Source: a virus. From it: a stretch of 34,768 bases of DNA. A model generated the notes under the pieces. It did not search any database. It was not told the DNA's origin and saw nothing but the letters and a program-made list of their open reading frames with translations. Positions 15,360 to 32,892 of this stretch are shown one piece after another. The stretch covers positions 1 through 34,768 of the IMG/VR virus record IMGVR_UViG_3300047201_000009. The stretch is one strand, 5' to 3'. The position numbers and the translations under genes were made by a program. Positions within the stretch are counted from its first letter, which is position 1. Every line of letters begins with the position of its first letter.

Positions 15360-15802
15360 TTCCAAATCCCCAGACGATGCAGATTAAGATTGCATTGCCG
15401 TAGTAGATTTCCGGTTGCAAGGCAAAGTAATTCTTCCGGGCCGTCTACAAATTTTGAGGCTCTACCGGCTAATCGCGAAGCTCGCCCGATTTCAAGTAGG
15501 TCTTTTCGAATAATCCGCCGTAACCAGAAAATGGCCGCGTGTGTACATTCATGTGCAACAACATCTGTTTCAAGGCCGCGCTGATAGAAATGGATATTGC
15601 CCATTTCGGGATTAATCCGCGCTTTTTTATTCTTTCTAAAATCTATCCTGCAAAATGAATGGCAAACTGCTTTGGTTTGTCGGCTAATTGGAGCCATGCA
15701 ATTCGCCTGACAATATGCCCACATCGCCCATTTGGTATCAAAAACCTGGACTAAAAAATGCAACCTTCGCCCGATTCTTGGATATATCTTGAATTCCCTC
15801 AT
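15356..15802 (-). CDS. Putative HExxH zinc metallopeptidase
   Basis: Predicted 148-residue, basic, Cys-containing protein. VVAHECTHAAIFWLRR (81-96) carries the HExxH zinc motif H84-E85-x-x-H88, and DGPEELLCLATGNLL (120-134) offers a downstream Glu (123 or 124), the gluzincin-type third ligand. It has no signal peptide or membrane segment, and is short for a standalone peptidase, with little beyond the catalytic core. ATGA overlap with the fusion glycosyltransferase gene and GTGA with the next. It may process a virion protein or another target, or may be an inactive relative; I rank peptidase as likely on motif spacing. Confidence 0.7.
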   Translation of the reverse strand: MREFKIYPRIGRRLHFLVQVFDTKWAMWAYCQANCMAPISRQTKAVCHSFCRIDFRKNKKARINPEMGNIHFYQRGLETDVVAHECTHAAIFWLRRIIRKDLLEIGRASRLAGRASKFVDGPEELLCLATGNLLRQCNLNLHRLGIWK

Positions 15803-17067
15803 TGCCGCACCAGCATTGCAATCTTGCGCGTGTCCTGCTCGATCCAGGGATGCAAGATTTCTTTGTAGTTCGGCGAATCAATACTGCCGCAATCCCCTTC
15901 CATGAGAAGCCGTTCAATTGCATTTCTAACGCTTTCCAGGTTGGAATCGTCCACCAGAATCCAAGGGACTTCCGCTTTCATGCAGGTTTCAATATCATGC
16001 CGACAGACTTCGATTTCATGCCCACCGTCGAGCCAGGCCAAGCCGCAACCCGCAATTTGATCCGATTTCAATTTCTCCCTGGAATCTCCGATTGCATTGC
16101 TGATTCTTAAATTTGTCTCTTCGCCGAGAATTTCGCAAATATCTGCCGTCCTTGGATCTGTATCATAGGTGAGCAATTCTGTCCCCGGACCCGCCAGCCA
16201 ATTCAGGAGATAGCCGAAGAAGCCTTTACAGGTTCCCGTTTCAACAACGCGCTTAGGACGCCCGGCTTGCTCATAGGCCCATGCAATCGCCCGAGTCTGC
16301 GCTGAGATTTCCTGTTCGGTCTGTCTTTCCAAGAGTGTTCCCTGATCGGTTTCAATTGAGGCGGCCAGCTTCCGAGCCAACGGATTATTTACCAGATGGC
16401 CAACCGAAGGAACCAGCCTGTGTCCATCATAGGGAACCGAGAATATCTCTTGATGTGGAGCTCCACCCCATTTTTGCTGATAGACAAAATCCGATAGGTG
16501 GCTTTCCATGTCGGTCGCCAGGGCCAGGCGCCAATCGGCCTTGATCGTGTTGGAGGCGTCGTTTTGATGGATCACGCCTTCGGCTCCAGCCTCAATTATC
16601 CCGAACCCGGCCAGCTTCACGCGCCTGTACCAATCCTCGTCGGCGTGATACCAAGGGATTTGCGTGTCCCAGGGACCCACTATGTCGATTGCCTGCCGAC
16701 TATATAGGCACAATACGTCGTAAAGGGTGAAAATCACGCCCCAGCCCGGAGCGGCGTCCTCCGCAATGGAAATCAGCCTATCGAGCGCTTCCGGGGTACA
16801 TTTCATGTCCGAATGGGCGAAGAGAACGGCGTCGGCGTCATTTTCTCTAGCCGTTTCCTGAAATGCATTTTGGGTCTGCGCAAAACTAAGCGGAACGATA
16901 GGACGATGACAGGCTTGCCATCCCCGCGGCTGAAATCCACTTAAACTATTATCTAGGACTAGCAACTCATAGATCCTGCCGTCATCAACGGCTGGCGTGA
17001 TGCTTTTCAGGCAATCTTCCAGCAAATCCGGGCGATTGACAAAGGGCACGCAGGCAATGATTTTCAA
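15799..17067 (-). CDS. Glycosyltransferase (GT2-like) fused to SAM methyltransferase-like domain
   Basis: Predicted 422 residues with two catalytic-looking domains. Residues 1-210 resemble a GT-A family 2 glycosyltransferase: KIIACVPFVNRPDLLEDCLK, ELLVLDNS, an HSD at 85-87 (DxD-like), and WYHADEDWYRRVKLAGF (139-155). Residues 270-422 resemble a class I methyltransferase of the Methyltransf_24 type: VVETGTCKGFFGYLL (motif I, 274-288), YDTDPRT (acidic loop, 301-307), AWLDGGHE (344-351) and WILVDDSN (369-376). Start is TTG at 17,067 in a TTGA overlap. It probably makes or modifies a glycan on a virion or cell-surface target; substrate unknown. Confidence 0.8.
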   Translation of the reverse strand: MKIIACVPFVNRPDLLEDCLKSITPAVDDGRIYELLVLDNSLSGFQPRGWQACHRPIVPLSFAQTQNAFQETARENDADAVLFAHSDMKCTPEALDRLISIAEDAAPGWGVIFTLYDVLCLYSRQAIDIVGPWDTQIPWYHADEDWYRRVKLAGFGIIEAGAEGVIHQNDASNTIKADWRLALATDMESHLSDFVYQQKWGGAPHQEIFSVPYDGHRLVPSVGHLVNNPLARKLAASIETDQGTLLERQTEQEISAQTRAIAWAYEQAGRPKRVVETGTCKGFFGYLLNWLAGPGTELLTYDTDPRTADICEILGEETNLRISNAIGDSREKLKSDQIAGCGLAWLDGGHEIEVCRHDIETCMKAEVPWILVDDSNLESVRNAIERLLMEGDCGSIDSPNYKEILHPWIEQDTRKIAMLVRQ

Positions 17068-27004: not shown

Positions 27005-28141
27005 TTATCCAGCCAGCACCGCCCCAAGTTCCGGACGCGGACACCCAACGCCACACAGAATGTCGTAGCTATAACGTGTCCGTTTGTGCTCGCGGCTCAT
27101 TTCAAGCCGCAGAGCAATCCCTGAGATTGGATCGACGGCGCTTTGGAAATTACCAAGTCCGGCACTCGCATCAGCCAAGGGCCGGGAAGCGAAGGCCAGC
27201 GCATCGCGATGGAATAACAGATTCACCCGGCGAGTGGCCTTTATGGTTATTGTCTCACCGCCCACCAGGGCGATCTTTAGGGCAGGCTCTATATAAACCG
27301 TCATATCGCCCCCGCCTGATCTGCTTGCCGCAGCACTCAAAACATAAGTCTGGGTGTCGCCGGCGAACGTAATGACGTCACCGGCAAACATCGCGGCAGT
27401 CCCGCCTGTGGTCGTAGTGATGGTCTTGACTCCGATTGCATGGGCGGTAGAAGCCTTCACGATGAAGGATACTGCCGCCGCTCCGGCTGTGAAAGACGGC
27501 ACGTTTTGATCCATCACCCAAAGAGCACCGAGCTTGCGCCCGATCTGGCCGTTGATAATTCCTTCCGTGTCGCCGCGGAAAGAGGCATCCTGGAAAGCGC
27601 GAAGCTGCAAAGCATTGGCCTCGGCGTCCGCATCGATAACGCAGAAACGCGGATCCATTGGAGCCAGCTGGTTGTTGAGAGCCTTGCGCACATTGAGATA
27701 GGCAGACAAATCAGTAGAGAAAGGAGTCGTGCCAGCCGTCCCGCCGTAGCCATAGAATTTCACGGTTTGGGCAAAGAGCAGTGCGTCCATTTTATTGGCA
27801 AGGGATTTGATCGCCTCCGATGCCTGCATGGGGATAACGCCTTCCATGCAATCCATCAGATCCTTGTCGGAAAGGAAAAATGCAGCTTCCCACCATTGAT
27901 CAAGGGCAATTGTGACTTCAGTGGGTGAGATTGCCGCTGTATCGGGAGCTACGTAATTCGGCGACACTGCATTTACGGTGATGGCCGAAGGAATTGGGAT
28001 AGAAATCGTCGAGCCTTTCTGCCCGGCGATGGTCTCATACCCACGGTTTACTAGCCGCGGCATGATGGCTTGCTGACGGAGGGCCAAGAGGCCCTGAGCC
28101 AGAAGCTTGGGTAATACATAAGTGATTGTGTTCGTGGTCAC
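27005..28141 (-). CDS. Major capsid protein (P22 coat-like)
   Basis: Predicted 378-residue coat protein of the P22 gp5-like HK97-fold family. Diagnostic stretches include the N-terminal LPKLLAQGLLALRQQAIMPRLVN, the GSTISIPIP strand, DQWWEAAFFLSDKDL, the FCVIDADAEANALQL segment and the GGETITIKATRRVN strand with NLLFHRDALAFASRPL near the C-terminus, all in the order seen in P22-type coats. Length is slightly shorter than P22 gp5 (430), consistent with a smaller inserted domain. The start is GTG (28,141) with an AGGAG ribosome site 8 nt upstream. It follows the scaffold gene directly, as expected. Confidence 0.9.
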   Translation of the reverse strand: MTTNTITYVLPKLLAQGLLALRQQAIMPRLVNRGYETIAGQKGSTISIPIPSAITVNAVSPNYVAPDTAAISPTEVTIALDQWWEAAFFLSDKDLMDCMEGVIPMQASEAIKSLANKMDALLFAQTVKFYGYGGTAGTTPFSTDLSAYLNVRKALNNQLAPMDPRFCVIDADAEANALQLRAFQDASFRGDTEGIINGQIGRKLGALWVMDQNVPSFTAGAAAVSFIVKASTAHAIGVKTITTTTGGTAAMFAGDVITFAGDTQTYVLSAAASRSGGGDMTVYIEPALKIALVGGETITIKATRRVNLLFHRDALAFASRPLADASAGLGNFQSAVDPISGIALRLEMSREHKRTRYSYDILCGVGCPRPELGAVLAG

Positions 28142-28226: not shown

Positions 28227-28994
28227 CTACGGTTCTACAACTGCCTTTCCGGACGCGATGTCCTCAAGGTTTTTGCCGAATGTCACGGCGTCAGGCATTT
28301 TGATAATGCGTGCGCCGCCGGATTTATGCGTATCGCCACCGTCTGCTCCGCCGCCCGCCGATGGTTTGAAGAATGCCTTCGGGACTCCCGTTGGCAGCCA
28401 TTCCTCTGCGGTAAGAGGTTGATCGGGATGTTCTTTGCTGTAAACTGGCGTGTCACCATTCAAGGCAATCACCTTGCCATCCTTGTATTTGAAAACCTCA
28501 CGGGCAAGGGTAAGCGCGGGACGCAGACAGTCGGGATCTATGCCAGCCTTGTTGGCAACATTCGTGATGTGTTCGTCCACGGCCTTGGATTCAAGTTGCT
28601 GCTTCAAAGTAAGGCGTTCCTGCTTGATGTTGGTGAGTTCGTCCACCAGCGGCTTGACGGCGGCTGAGACGTTCTTCTGAATCAGTGCTTCGATATCATC
28701 CGCGCCCTTCACGCCTTTCTTTGTAAAGGTTTCCTTCTCGGCCTTGAGCGTTTTGTACTCTTCCGGGTCCAGGCCGTCGAAAGTCTTGAGTTTGGGGAGT
28801 AATTCTTCGTCAATCCTTTTCATAAGACGGACGTTGGAATCTCTAAATTCGCTTATTTTCGCCTTGGCCTCCTTCAACTCCGTTTCGGGAGTCAAACCCT
28901 CGGCATTCAAGAAGTATTTTCCTTCCTTCTCTGTGTAAAATTCTTTCAGCGCCTCTGGCACTGCGCCATCAAGCACCGCTTTTAGCGTTGTCAT
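28227..28994 (-). CDS. Capsid scaffold-like protein
   Basis: Predicted 255-residue, highly charged, helix-rich protein located immediately before the major capsid gene, the usual scaffold position. Residues 35-145 are strongly coiled-coil-like (Glu/Lys-rich, LKEAKAKISEFRDSNVRL, LVDELTNIKQERLTLKQQLE), as in GP20-type phage scaffolds. The C-terminus is Gly/Asp-rich. It would guide assembly of the coat protein into a procapsid and then leave. The ATG at 28,994 follows GAAGAGGAAATCAA, a good ribosome site, downstream of a terminator-like hairpin. Confidence 0.75.
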   Translation of the reverse strand: MTTLKAVLDGAVPEALKEFYTEKEGKYFLNAEGLTPETELKEAKAKISEFRDSNVRLMKRIDEELLPKLKTFDGLDPEEYKTLKAEKETFTKKGVKGADDIEALIQKNVSAAVKPLVDELTNIKQERLTLKQQLESKAVDEHITNVANKAGIDPDCLRPALTLAREVFKYKDGKVIALNGDTPVYSKEHPDQPLTAEEWLPTGVPKAFFKPSAGGGADGGDTHKSGGARIIKMPDAVTFGKNLEDIASGKAVVEP

Positions 28995-29010: not shown

Positions 29011-29055
29011 AATAAAAAGGGCTGAATTCCTGGGAACCTCCCAAGTATCAGCCCT
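29011..29055 (-). terminator. Terminator-like hairpin upstream of the scaffold gene
   Basis: On the minus strand a GGGCTGA/TCAGCCC 7-bp stem (29,054-29,048 and 29,025-29,019) encloses an inner TGGGA/TCCCA pairing, and is followed at once by TTTTTATT. This is the form of a rho-independent terminator. Only 24 nt separate it from the scaffold ATG, too few for a promoter, so it probably acts as a partial terminator, attenuator or processing hairpin rather than a complete stop. Confidence 0.7.
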
Positions 29056-29075: not shown

Positions 29076-29159
29076 TTATGCTGCTTGCTGCGCCGCCTCT
29101 TCCCTCAACTGCTCAAATATTCCTTTGCCCTCGGCCCTCACGAGGCCCTCGCAGCATCT
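29076..29159 (-). other. Open frame after the UGA of the Mu F-like gene
   Basis: Twenty-seven sense codons in the same frame as the Mu F-like gene, directly after its UGA (29,162-29,160), ending in TAA. The first three residues are R-C-C, completing the family's HPxCRC motif if the UGA is read as an amino acid; the rest (GIFEQLREEAAQQAA near the end) looks like an ordinary soluble C-terminus. It has no start codon and ribosome site of its own. A short GGCC inverted repeat lies 13-27 nt after the UGA. It could be a readthrough extension or the remnant of a recently truncated gene. Confidence 0.55.
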
Positions 29160-30089
29160 TCAGCCGGGATGGAGGGTAGGCGGGCCTTCACCATTCTCAT
29201 AGGTTCCGTCAATGGGCCGCCGCTCGCCTTCCATTTCCAAGCATTCATCGCAGAGCCGGTCGTCTTTGGTCACAATCCAGATTACGTCCCAATCCGCTTC
29301 ATCGAGTTCGCCTTTTTCAACGGCCTGCTTCCAGAGTTGCGCCTGTCCCTCTGCGCTGGCATCAATCGTCAAAGTCCGGGCAATCGTCTCCGCCCGCCGC
29401 GCAATCAACCGATCCGTATATTTCTGCACCAGCGATTCAATGCGCTCATTCGTCAGGCCAGTGCGATCCAGTACACCAAGGCCACGCTTCTCTGTAAGCA
29501 GGTTTCTCATCCCGCCCTTGCGCAGCATCCCCTCGGCAGTCTTACTCAAATCGGCAACCTCGGTGAAGCGATCAGCCAGGCCGCGCAGATATTCATCGTA
29601 TCGCCCAACGGTCTTCCAACCATTCTGCGTGAGGCCCACAAGGTCGCGGATCTCGCGCGCAATCTGCAGCGTGGGGATGCCCTCCATGAAGGAGCGTTCA
29701 ATCGCGGCCCGGATTGCCGCTTCCGTTTCCGCGCTGATCTTCAAAACCTTGTCGATCACGTCGTTGCGGATGACACTGAAGACTTGGGGATTCGTCATGT
29801 CAAACGAAATGCTGACGCCCTTGGGCAATGCAGCTACTGCCGCGCCCTTTTGCACCAGATCATGAACGGCAACCAGCGCCTCAGATTGGAACTGCGCAAA
29901 CTCGTCTTTCAGACCGATCCTTTCCATTACCTTCGCGATCTGACCCAATGAAATCAAGGCAGCGATCTGCGTTAGGTTCACATTGCCGTTGAGCCGCCGG
30001 ATTGTTTTGATAAACTCCCGGCGCAGTTGTGGCTCAAGCGAATCGGCAACCTGGTGAATCTCGGTGATGCTGGAAAGGACTTTAGCCAT
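29160..30089 (-). CDS. Minor head/head morphogenesis protein (SPP1 gp7/Mu F-like), with UGA at the HPxCRC motif
   Basis: Predicted 309 residues up to the first stop. The helical N-terminal two-thirds and the C-terminal domain with ARTLTIDASAEGQ, then a CDEC pair (280-283) and PPTLHPG (303-309), match the SPP1 gp7/Mu F family, a minor head protein bound to the portal and needed for assembly or DNA ejection. In that family the HP is followed by x-C-R-C. Here the next codons are TGA AGA TGC TGC, so a UGA sits exactly at the first Cys and the frame then encodes R-C-C and 24 more residues to a TAA at 29,078-29,076. Either the gene is truncated by a TGC-to-TGA change, UGA is read through or recoded, or there is a sequence error. 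Start ATG overlaps the portal stop (TAATG). Confidence 0.85.
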   Translation of the reverse strand: MAKVLSSITEIHQVADSLEPQLRREFIKTIRRLNGNVNLTQIAALISLGQIAKVMERIGLKDEFAQFQSEALVAVHDLVQKGAAVAALPKGVSISFDMTNPQVFSVIRNDVIDKVLKISAETEAAIRAAIERSFMEGIPTLQIAREIRDLVGLTQNGWKTVGRYDEYLRGLADRFTEVADLSKTAEGMLRKGGMRNLLTEKRGLGVLDRTGLTNERIESLVQKYTDRLIARRAETIARTLTIDASAEGQAQLWKQAVEKGELDEADWDVIWIVTKDDRLCDECLEMEGERRPIDGTYENGEGPPTLHPG

Positions 30090-31477
30090 TACAGCCCCCC
30101 GCTTCCCGTACTGCCGCCGGCTTTTATTTGAGCCTCTTCGGTTTCATAGTCCACGCCTGGCCGCGTCAACTCACCCTTTTGCAGGTTGCTGTACAGGGTT
30201 TGTTTGCTGATCGCATTACTCTGCCACAGGGCCATGAGGGCCGTGACTTCCTGAGGGCTGAGCTCCACGTCCATCAGATCGGTATTGAGCGCAATGGCCA
30301 CGTCGTCAGGATTAGCGCCTGCCCAGTCGGCCATCCACTTCACGGCCATCGTCAAGCCCATGCTGCCCGTTTGCGCGATGGATTGCAGGATGGAATTCTC
30401 GCCGCTATGGCGAAGCTTCACGGTTTCGGCTGCCTCCGGGGTTGCCCGTTGTTGTTCTAACAGCCGGGCACCAAGCGCGGCCATCTTGGCTTCTTTTTTC
30501 TCAAGAGCCTTCTCTAGGGTTTCAAGCCCCTTGCCGGTGAATTCAACATAATTTACCTTGGCATTCTCATTGCTGATCACCAGCGCCTTGGATGAACCAA
30601 CATCGATATTTTTCCCTTGGGAATCCCAGCCCGTAATGGAAACAAAGGGCAATGCCGTGAAATGGGTGCCGTGTTCAAGATCCGCCGAACTGCGATAATG
30701 GGAAATATTCACATCAACAAGATCGGCAATTGGGGAGCGCTCAACATTCGGACTGAGTGATCGCGGACCGAGAAATACAAACGGGATGAAGTCCCAGGAA
30801 TCCCCGCGGATGATTGGAATGACTGGATCTCCGGTGACCCATTCTTCCTTGCCGGCCGTCTTGACTTTGCGCCAAATGGTTTGTTGGTAGACGCGCCGGG
30901 GGCATTCCATGGACAATTCCAGCACGCGATACTGGCCCTTTAGTTCCAATTCGAATTTGTCTTTTTCGCTGGCTTCCCATGTTTCTTCATAAAGCACAAC
31001 GAGGGAAAGCAAGGTTAGATCATCAACCTTTACCGTGCGCCAATTCCTGATTTGCTCCGCTGAGTAGGTCGTCAGGTATGGCCGATGATCGGGACTATTT
31101 TCGGGCGGCATATCAACCAGAATGCCAACGCGCCCCACGGTCATAATTTCATGCAGCAGGTTCTTAGAGAACGAATCCAGGGGCTCATCTTTCAGCGTGA
31201 TGTCTTTGAGAAATGGTTCAATTAGACCAGGAACTTCTATCTGGATAGGCTTGCGGAAAATGGCACCCACAAGGCCATCAACCGTGCGGGCGGCGGCGTT
31301 GTAGAACAGCGCACGATCCTTGTAGGCTTGATATTCGGCGGGCTCCTGGTCTGGAAGTTTGGGCAGATAGGTGGTTCCGGCCGCCTTAACCGTATCGCTC
31401 CCGGCAATCACATCACGACAACCCTGCCACAGTGCGGCACTGGCTTGGTAGTCGGGATGAATAAAGGTAATAGACAT
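30089..31477 (-). CDS. Portal protein (DUF4055 family)
   Basis: Predicted 462-residue portal that forms the dodecameric ring at the packaging vertex. Sequence features match the DUF4055 portal family: an N-terminal FIHPDYQA segment, YKDRALFYNAAARTVDGLVG then a FRKP turn, the central region DLEHGTHFTALPF, and the late helical barrel with a KEAKMAALGARLLEQQ segment typical of portal crown helices. The C-terminus is Gly/Ser-rich. Length is normal for the family. It starts in a TAATG overlap with the large terminase and ends in a TAATG overlap with the Mu F-like gene, as in many phages with the order terL-portal-F. Confidence 0.9.
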   Translation of the reverse strand: MSITFIHPDYQASAALWQGCRDVIAGSDTVKAAGTTYLPKLPDQEPAEYQAYKDRALFYNAAARTVDGLVGAIFRKPIQIEVPGLIEPFLKDITLKDEPLDSFSKNLLHEIMTVGRVGILVDMPPENSPDHRPYLTTYSAEQIRNWRTVKVDDLTLLSLVVLYEETWEASEKDKFELELKGQYRVLELSMECPRRVYQQTIWRKVKTAGKEEWVTGDPVIPIIRGDSWDFIPFVFLGPRSLSPNVERSPIADLVDVNISHYRSSADLEHGTHFTALPFVSITGWDSQGKNIDVGSSKALVISNENAKVNYVEFTGKGLETLEKALEKKEAKMAALGARLLEQQRATPEAAETVKLRHSGENSILQSIAQTGSMGLTMAVKWMADWAGANPDDVAIALNTDLMDVELSPQEVTALMALWQSNAISKQTLYSNLQKGELTRPGVDYETEEAQIKAGGSTGSGGL

Positions 31478-32892
31478 TAGTGCTCCGATAATCTCACTTG
31501 AAAGAGTTGCGGGCGGATCGTGAATAACCGATAACGCGCTTCGTCGTAAACGTGGTCTTCGGAATCCTTTTCCACGTCATCGGGATCAGTTTTGCTTCGC
31601 GGTAATACCGGCACGGTCCTGATAAACTGCCTGCAGGTGTCCATGATGAATAAGCCCGGCTCTTCCAGCGGCTTTGCGGTAGAAGCCTTCAATGCCGCGC
31701 GCATTTTCTCAAAGCCCGTTTTGCGGCTGAGCGGAGATTTGTCGGCACGGGTCCAGCGGCAACCAACGCGCTCCATGTCCGCTGCAAATGAGACATCGGA
31801 GTCAAATATCTGCGTATCCGCCGGACCCGGTTTCACGTGAAACTTGAATCCCTTCTCGATCTCGACCACCTTGCGCCCGATCTCGGCAGCGTTCATGTGG
31901 TTGCCTTCATTGGGCTGCCCGTTCCATCCGTAATATTCGGCAATCCTGAAAAGAGTGCCGCGGGGATAATGCTTTCCGTTGGGAGCTTGCGTACCATCGC
32001 TCTCGGCCCACCATCCCACGCTGAACGGATGCGAGCTGCCCCAGTCAAACGAGCGGTCGACATACCAGCTCTGCGGAGGCTCGAAATAGGGAATGACGTG
32101 AATGTCGGGATTCCATATGTCGTCGAAGGCGCCGCCGGCAACAATATCCCAATCCCCGCTAAGCATTGCGCGAACAAGTGCCGGGTCTCCGTACGCCTCA
32201 AGTCGTTCACTGTATTTAGGATCTGCTTCGGTAAGCGTTGGATTGTCTTCAAGGCGCGCCGGGATGAATTGTCTCATCATCCCGCCTTCACCCTTGCCGG
32301 TAGTCCACATTTCCAGCGGTTTCACTGGATCGATAAATGCTGCCTTCACCCAATTATGGCCGATAGAGCCGGGATTGCTCGCGCTGAGAATGCGCGGGAA
32401 CATCGGCTTGTATTTCTCTGGAATCTTCAATCCGCCAAGCCTGACACGCCCTCGAAGATATCGATACATCGATCCCAGGAAGTGCGTCAATTCGTCGATC
32501 ATTAGGACGTGTATTTCCGGCCCCTGATATTTCTCAACGTCTTTTTCGTACTGACAATGACACAGGAAAATCTTCGAGCCGTTCCAAAACTGAATATCAT
32601 TGTCCGAGTAATTTATTTTTACGTGCTTGCTTCCAACCCAAGGCAACAAGAGAGCCGGGAACGATGTTGGGCCTTCCATGTGATTTTTTATCAAGTCCGG
32701 GAATATCCGCCGAAACAAATAGACCTGAAGTCCGGGAATATCGAAGCACCAAGCAATGGCCGCCACGCGCAGCAGGTGTGATTTCCCACCTCCACATGCA
32801 CCGCCGTAAAGTATTTCCGTGGCATTACTTTGGAATGCAATTCCCTGCTTCGGATGAAGCCGGAGATTTAGAATCAGATTCGATAATAACAT
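31477..32892 (-). CDS. terL: Terminase large subunit (ATPase-nuclease)
   Basis: Predicted 471-residue DNA-packaging motor. The N-terminal ATPase begins with the adenine-binding-type LHPKQ segment (12-16), then a Walker A GGACGGGKS (30-38), Walker B VLMIDE (129-134) and coupling motif SASNPG (170-175). The C-terminal RNase H-like nuclease begins around 277 with YVDRSFDWG, supplying acidic metal ligands, and continues with an ADTQIFDSD segment. Length matches typical Terminase_6 proteins. The ATG at 32,892 gives the family's normal N-terminus, so the 68-nt overlap with the small subunit is probably genuine. Its TAA overlaps the portal ATG (TAATG). It acts at the portal vertex to pump DNA into the procapsid and cut the concatemer. 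Confidence 0.95.
   Translation of the reverse strand: MLLSNLILNLRLHPKQGIAFQSNATEILYGGACGGGKSHLLRVAAIAWCFDIPGLQVYLFRRIFPDLIKNHMEGPTSFPALLLPWVGSKHVKINYSDNDIQFWNGSKIFLCHCQYEKDVEKYQGPEIHVLMIDELTHFLGSMYRYLRGRVRLGGLKIPEKYKPMFPRILSASNPGSIGHNWVKAAFIDPVKPLEMWTTGKGEGGMMRQFIPARLEDNPTLTEADPKYSERLEAYGDPALVRAMLSGDWDIVAGGAFDDIWNPDIHVIPYFEPPQSWYVDRSFDWGSSHPFSVGWWAESDGTQAPNGKHYPRGTLFRIAEYYGWNGQPNEGNHMNAAEIGRKVVEIEKGFKFHVKPGPADTQIFDSDVSFAADMERVGCRWTRADKSPLSRKTGFEKMRAALKASTAKPLEEPGLFIMDTCRQFIRTVPVLPRSKTDPDDVEKDSEDHVYDEARYRLFTIRPQLFQVRLSEH

Follow-up and report, generated by a model that had tools for sequence, protein, structure and literature searches.

The Phage_Mu_F family (PF04233; PHROG 3517) includes gpF of phage Mu and gp7 of phage SPP1, the latter being the best-studied homologue. 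SPP1 can assemble without gp7, and about 25% of the virions lacking it are infectious (PMC6316719); gp7 is present in 1–3 copies (PMC5576092, PMC4493119). The phage gene described here shares with this family the domain, the place just after the portal gene and the CxxC...HPxCRC layout but has, in this contig, a TGA where the HPxCRC motif has its first Cys. Bacterial genes with in-frame stops are widespread, and a nonsense codon on its own is a common finding (Belinky et al. 2021, PMC7918605); here, too, an isolated nonsense codon is followed by an intact frame. The coat/A1 gene of Qbeta is likewise a virion gene in which a UGA is followed by an open frame, and A1 is produced by UGA readthrough at about 1 in 15 (PMC8067240). 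Readthrough is demonstrated in Qbeta, whereas the UGA described here is a sequence observation from one contig, and its extension is 27 residues long and belongs to the same domain. Finally, bacterial Sec/Cys selenoprotein pairs have, like the locus studied here, a UGA opposite a conserved Cys and a hairpin at a permitted spacing, for which a geometry model of bacterial SECIS elements has been published (PMC13188914). Unlike those pairs, the present case comprises a single sequence, a hairpin that does not rise above background and no known selenoprotein family. A phage example of a Sec/Cys selenoprotein was not found in the literature searched.

The DNA analysed, 34,768 bases long, is an entire virus record of IMG/VR and is referred to as the window. 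The head module is encoded on the minus strand in the order small terminase, large terminase, portal, Mu F-like protein, scaffold and major head protein (Table 1). The Mu F-like gene matched PF04233 with 35.0 bits, above the curated cut-off of 29.6, and phrog_3517, a head morphogenesis family, with an E-value of 7e-37. It is located directly downstream of the portal gene, with which it overlaps by 1 nt, and upstream of the scaffold and major head protein genes. Another gene among the structural genes (15799-17067) weakly matched a PHROG of galactosyl transferases (2.7e-6).

Table 1 Features of the head module and of the region around the in-frame TGA, in positions of the window.
Feature	Position	Strand	Evidence or remark
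Terminase large subunit gene	31477..32892	-	phrog_979; relatives up to 58% identical
Portal gene	30089..31477	-	phrog_145 (5e-131); DUF4055
Mu F-like minor head / head morphogenesis gene	29160..30089	-	309 aa up to the TGA; PF04233, phrog_3517
CxxC (Cys280, Cys283), putative metal site that Cys310 and Cys312 would complete	29241..29252	-	co-occurrence in alignment A3
In-frame TGA, codon 310, at the site of the conserved first Cys of HPxCRC	29160-29162	-	sequence; codon TGC/TGT in relatives
27-codon open continuation RCCEGLVRAEGKGIFEQLREEAAQQAA	29079..29159	-	homologous to C-terminal strand of relatives; strand 313-318 and helix 324-336 in read-through model
Hairpin GGCCU-CGUGA-GGGCC, SECIS-like geometry, not distinctive	29133..29147	-	loop starts 17 nt after the UGA
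TAA closing the continued frame	29076..29078	-	sequence
Terminator-like hairpin followed by U run, between Mu F-like and scaffolding genes	29018..29055	-	-24.1 kcal/mol; z -3.64 for 71-nt segment
Head scaffolding protein gene	28227..28994	-	phrog_206 (1.6e-19)
Major head protein gene	27005..28141	-	phrog_283 (6e-69); P22_CoatProtein

At the end of the Mu F-like gene the minus strand reads CAT CCC GGC TGA AGA TGC TGC, that is H P G stop R C C. An earlier note on this DNA had named the family and the HPxCRC motif and had placed the TGA at its first Cys codon, with a surviving frame downstream; all of this was confirmed by the sequence and the alignment of relatives. The frame indeed runs on past the TGA for 27 residues, free of further stops until the TAA at 29076, but it does not fill most of the gap as the note had it: the gap to the next gene, which starts at 28994, measures 165 nt, of which extension and TAA take up 84, about half. 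A GGCC inverted repeat 13-27 nt past the UGA and a terminator-like hairpin before the next gene, both also described there, were found again at 29133-29147 and 29018-29055 (z = -3.6 for folding of the latter segment), respectively.

The residues behind the TGA, RCCEGLVRA, resemble the tails of relatives with the pattern CRC-x-x-GLV, such as CRCAEGLVEV (L168), CRCAEGLVEA (L205) and CRCAIGLVRA (L183). On a profile of these tails, the octamer RCCEGLVR was the top scorer, matched only by itself among the 52,827 octamers of the six-frame translation of the window; the chance of such a score from background residues was 4e-5, or 0.02 if R and C were left out. The codon-usage score of the 81-nt tail was +1.4, compared to 9.0 ± 4.9 for real 27-codon stretches and -16.4 ± 10.3 for out-of-frame ones, and is thus at the low end of the range for real coding sequence. 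A frameshift or indel at the TGA was ruled out, since the homologous tail is in frame 0 and absent from the other frames. AlphaFold models were compared for the two possible products. The read-through protein, modelled with Cys at position 310, had an extra strand (residues 313-318; block pLDDT 89) and a C-terminal helix (324-336). In the model of the 309-residue protein this strand was gone, the neighbouring strand 267-272 was shortened and the last four residues had a pLDDT below 50. Solved relatives were found neither by sequence nor by fold. Because of the tail homology, the codon usage and the difference between the two models, we conclude that the sequence behind the TGA is the ancestral coding frame, interrupted by the TGA.

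Relatives were collected from phage records (23–31% identity) and from alignment-based scans of viral contigs, which gave two partly overlapping sets of 76 and 80 loci; they are distant from the window protein, being at most ~36% identical over part of it. The aligned codon could be assigned in 113 non-redundant relatives and was TGC in 81 and TGT in 32, so that the comparison proposed in the earlier note gave a Cys codon in every case and a TGA or other stop in none. Nine further sequences are without an assigned codon owing to contig ends, inteins at the Cys, Asp (two sequences) or a spurious match (one). The two with Asp in place of the first Cys (QDRC; L113 and L132) show that, outside the HPxCRC type, some variation occurs at this position. 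The inteins in related Mu F genes are inserted exactly at the Cys of HPx|C, where the window has its TGA (L150:2569-4608, L170:2327-4240, L211:1523-4975 and L199); the three that were tested matched Pfam Intein_splicing with E-values of 5e-6 to 1.4e-7, below the curated cut-off. The intein of L211 contains a DUF559/Vsr-like nuclease, and the HPx|C site of Mu F genes seems to be used by at least two intein types. The Mu F protein of L211:1523-4975 also has a long N-terminal extension and, after the Mu F domain, a match to a HipA-like kinase (below cut-off), an arrangement like that of polyvalent or Mu F fusion proteins.

In alignment A3, whose 51 members had been picked for containing CRC, Cys310, Arg311 and Cys312 were aligned in 51/51. 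All 37 members with CxxC at positions 280/283 also have His307, Cys310 and Cys312, while R/H is found at the CxxC positions in 13 of the 51. This co-occurrence in the aligned sequences suggests that CxxC, His307 and Cys310/Cys312 form a metal site. The annotated 309-aa product lacks the full CxxC...HPxCRC Cys set, which requires readthrough of the TGA to be complete; the set is a trait of a subgroup and not a condition of PF04233 membership. The protein could be adapted to the shorter length, the 309-residue form being functional and the downstream frame a fresh relic. The N-terminal helical part is intact in this form and the terminator-like hairpin lies downstream either way, but a relative with a truncated protein that stops before the motif was not found, the aligned ones retaining CRC and the residues after it, and the truncated protein is predicted to lose strand 313-318 and to end in a poorly modelled stretch. 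We consider an adapted truncation unlikely.

Next to the relatives, a recurrence of the stop was looked for. In IMG/VR, the pattern PP-x-HPx-(TAA or TGA)-RC had 7 matches, 0 of them in a Mu F reading frame, and its counterpart with a Cys codon had at least 120, of which at least 41 of 80 examined were Mu F-like and in frame; the pattern misses the window's own PPTLHP and so covers only part of the family. No close kin were found by a single-protein scan of viral contigs, by a portal scan or by a degenerate DNA search for HPGxRCCEGLV. A DNA search of phage records gave only an 82-nt match and GTDB genomes only one weak partial match that looks spurious; such searches of collections may leave out records very near the window. 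The UGA was seen in one contig and not in two or more distinct sequences, and the relatives keep the tail with Cys, not with UGA. Judged by these searches, the TGA at codon 310 is private to one contig.

Elsewhere in the phage TGA is an ordinary stop. It closes many genes and takes part in at least six overlapping stop/start junctions, often of the ATGA type (for example at genes 24934, 22591, 21358, 15799, 13127 and 6891, the last being the tape measure gene). Genes for tRNAs, including suppressor or Sec tRNAs, were not found in the 34,768 bases. Since TGA closes many phage genes and no tRNA is encoded, a change of code that makes UGA a sense codon throughout the genome of the phage or its host, for which nothing speaks but codon 310 itself, is ruled out for practical purposes.

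A near-cognate tRNA (Trp, Arg or Cys) could read the UGA at a few percent, giving mostly truncated product and a small fixed fraction with the CRC tail. Behind the UGA the frame is intact and its product is predicted to fold as part of the domain, a protein needed at 1–3 copies per head, as the homologue suggests, could be supplied in this way, and A1 of Qbeta is a precedent. However, the UGA is conserved in no relative, it is followed by an A and lacks a CUA-type readthrough context, Trp or Arg would stand in for an almost invariant Cys and the window has no suppressor tRNA. A functional leaky UGA is, in our judgement, rather unlikely.

The UGA could also be read as selenocysteine, with the hairpin at 29133-29147 as bacterial SECIS; Sec and Cys would then form a pair in a site of metal- or redox-like character. 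A UGA opposite a conserved Cys with homologous flanks on both sides is the standard Sec/Cys signature, and the hairpin fits the published geometry with its 5-nt loop with G in second position, its 5-bp stem and its spacing of 17 nt (-12.3 kcal/mol for the folded segment). The SECIS-like hairpin that the earlier note had proposed to look for is thus present, but it does not stand out from the background. Alone it has -6.6 kcal/mol, above the limit of -7.5 of the SECIS model, it folds little better than shuffled sequences (z -0.6) and no Rfam family matched at the TGA site. The criteria, in the whole-fold version, are also satisfied by 8–14% of the codons in the phage genome, and they are satisfied by 13–19 of 108 ordinary Cys codons of the relatives (12–18%); a perfect-stem hairpin as good or better follows 4% of the codons in the phage genome. 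Furthermore, the Cys310 site looks structural. A singleton UGA/Cys sequence is regarded as a candidate only, since a sequencing error can create such a TGA (rule in the survey PMC1088965), and the present case is a single sequence. Selenocysteine is therefore a very improbable reading of codon 310. The standing given here to selenocysteine and to functional leakiness is a matter of judgement and not a computed value. Taken together, it is quite unlikely that the UGA at the conserved Cys is read as Sec, or that leakage serves to restrict full-length Mu F to a few copies per head; the leaky reading is counted here only as far as leakage would have evolved for this purpose and not as a side effect.

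In sum, of the options raised in the earlier note, a truncating mutation or a base error is best supported, because genome-wide recoding is rejected, the hairpin is at background level and the TGA is found in one contig, while local readthrough and selenocysteine are left with low probability. We consider it probable that a recent nonsense change, private to this contig, has struck a Mu F-like minor head gene that is otherwise intact; the sampled phage population would carry a point mutation, or the contig would contain a single wrong base. The absence of stops in the 113 relatives, the lack of recurrence in Mu F genes, the undecayed downstream frame and the normal use of TGA as stop make this the best explanation. 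The conserved first Cys codon of HPxCRC would thus have been replaced by point mutation or by an error in the contig. Ribosomes would normally terminate at the TGA and release a 309-residue protein from which CRC and the final beta strand are missing, and basal readthrough may give a little full-length protein. The change would be recent and not programmed. The phage presumably tolerates the loss, as Mu F proteins may work at very low copy number and are not always essential, by analogy to the characterised homologue SPP1 gp7.

Some observations count against a nonsense change. Only 5 of the 108 single-base changes that create a stop in the Mu F-like gene fall on one of its five Cys codons (~5%, about 1 in 20), and the hairpin with SECIS geometry at the right distance contributes roughly another factor of ten. 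In combination the two are suggestive, albeit that the site had been singled out beforehand for this very coincidence and that isolated nonsense codons are not rare. Cys310 is almost invariant and its loss should cost something, and the tail is at the low end of coding codon usage.

If the UGA is translated, the gene would add a rare instance of recoded UGA among the head genes of tailed phages and, with selenocysteine at this codon, would encode a phage virion selenoprotein. If it is not translated, it is an ordinary nonsense change, and the alignment then still shows that CRC is strongly kept in the family and that the stop lies at a true Cys site.
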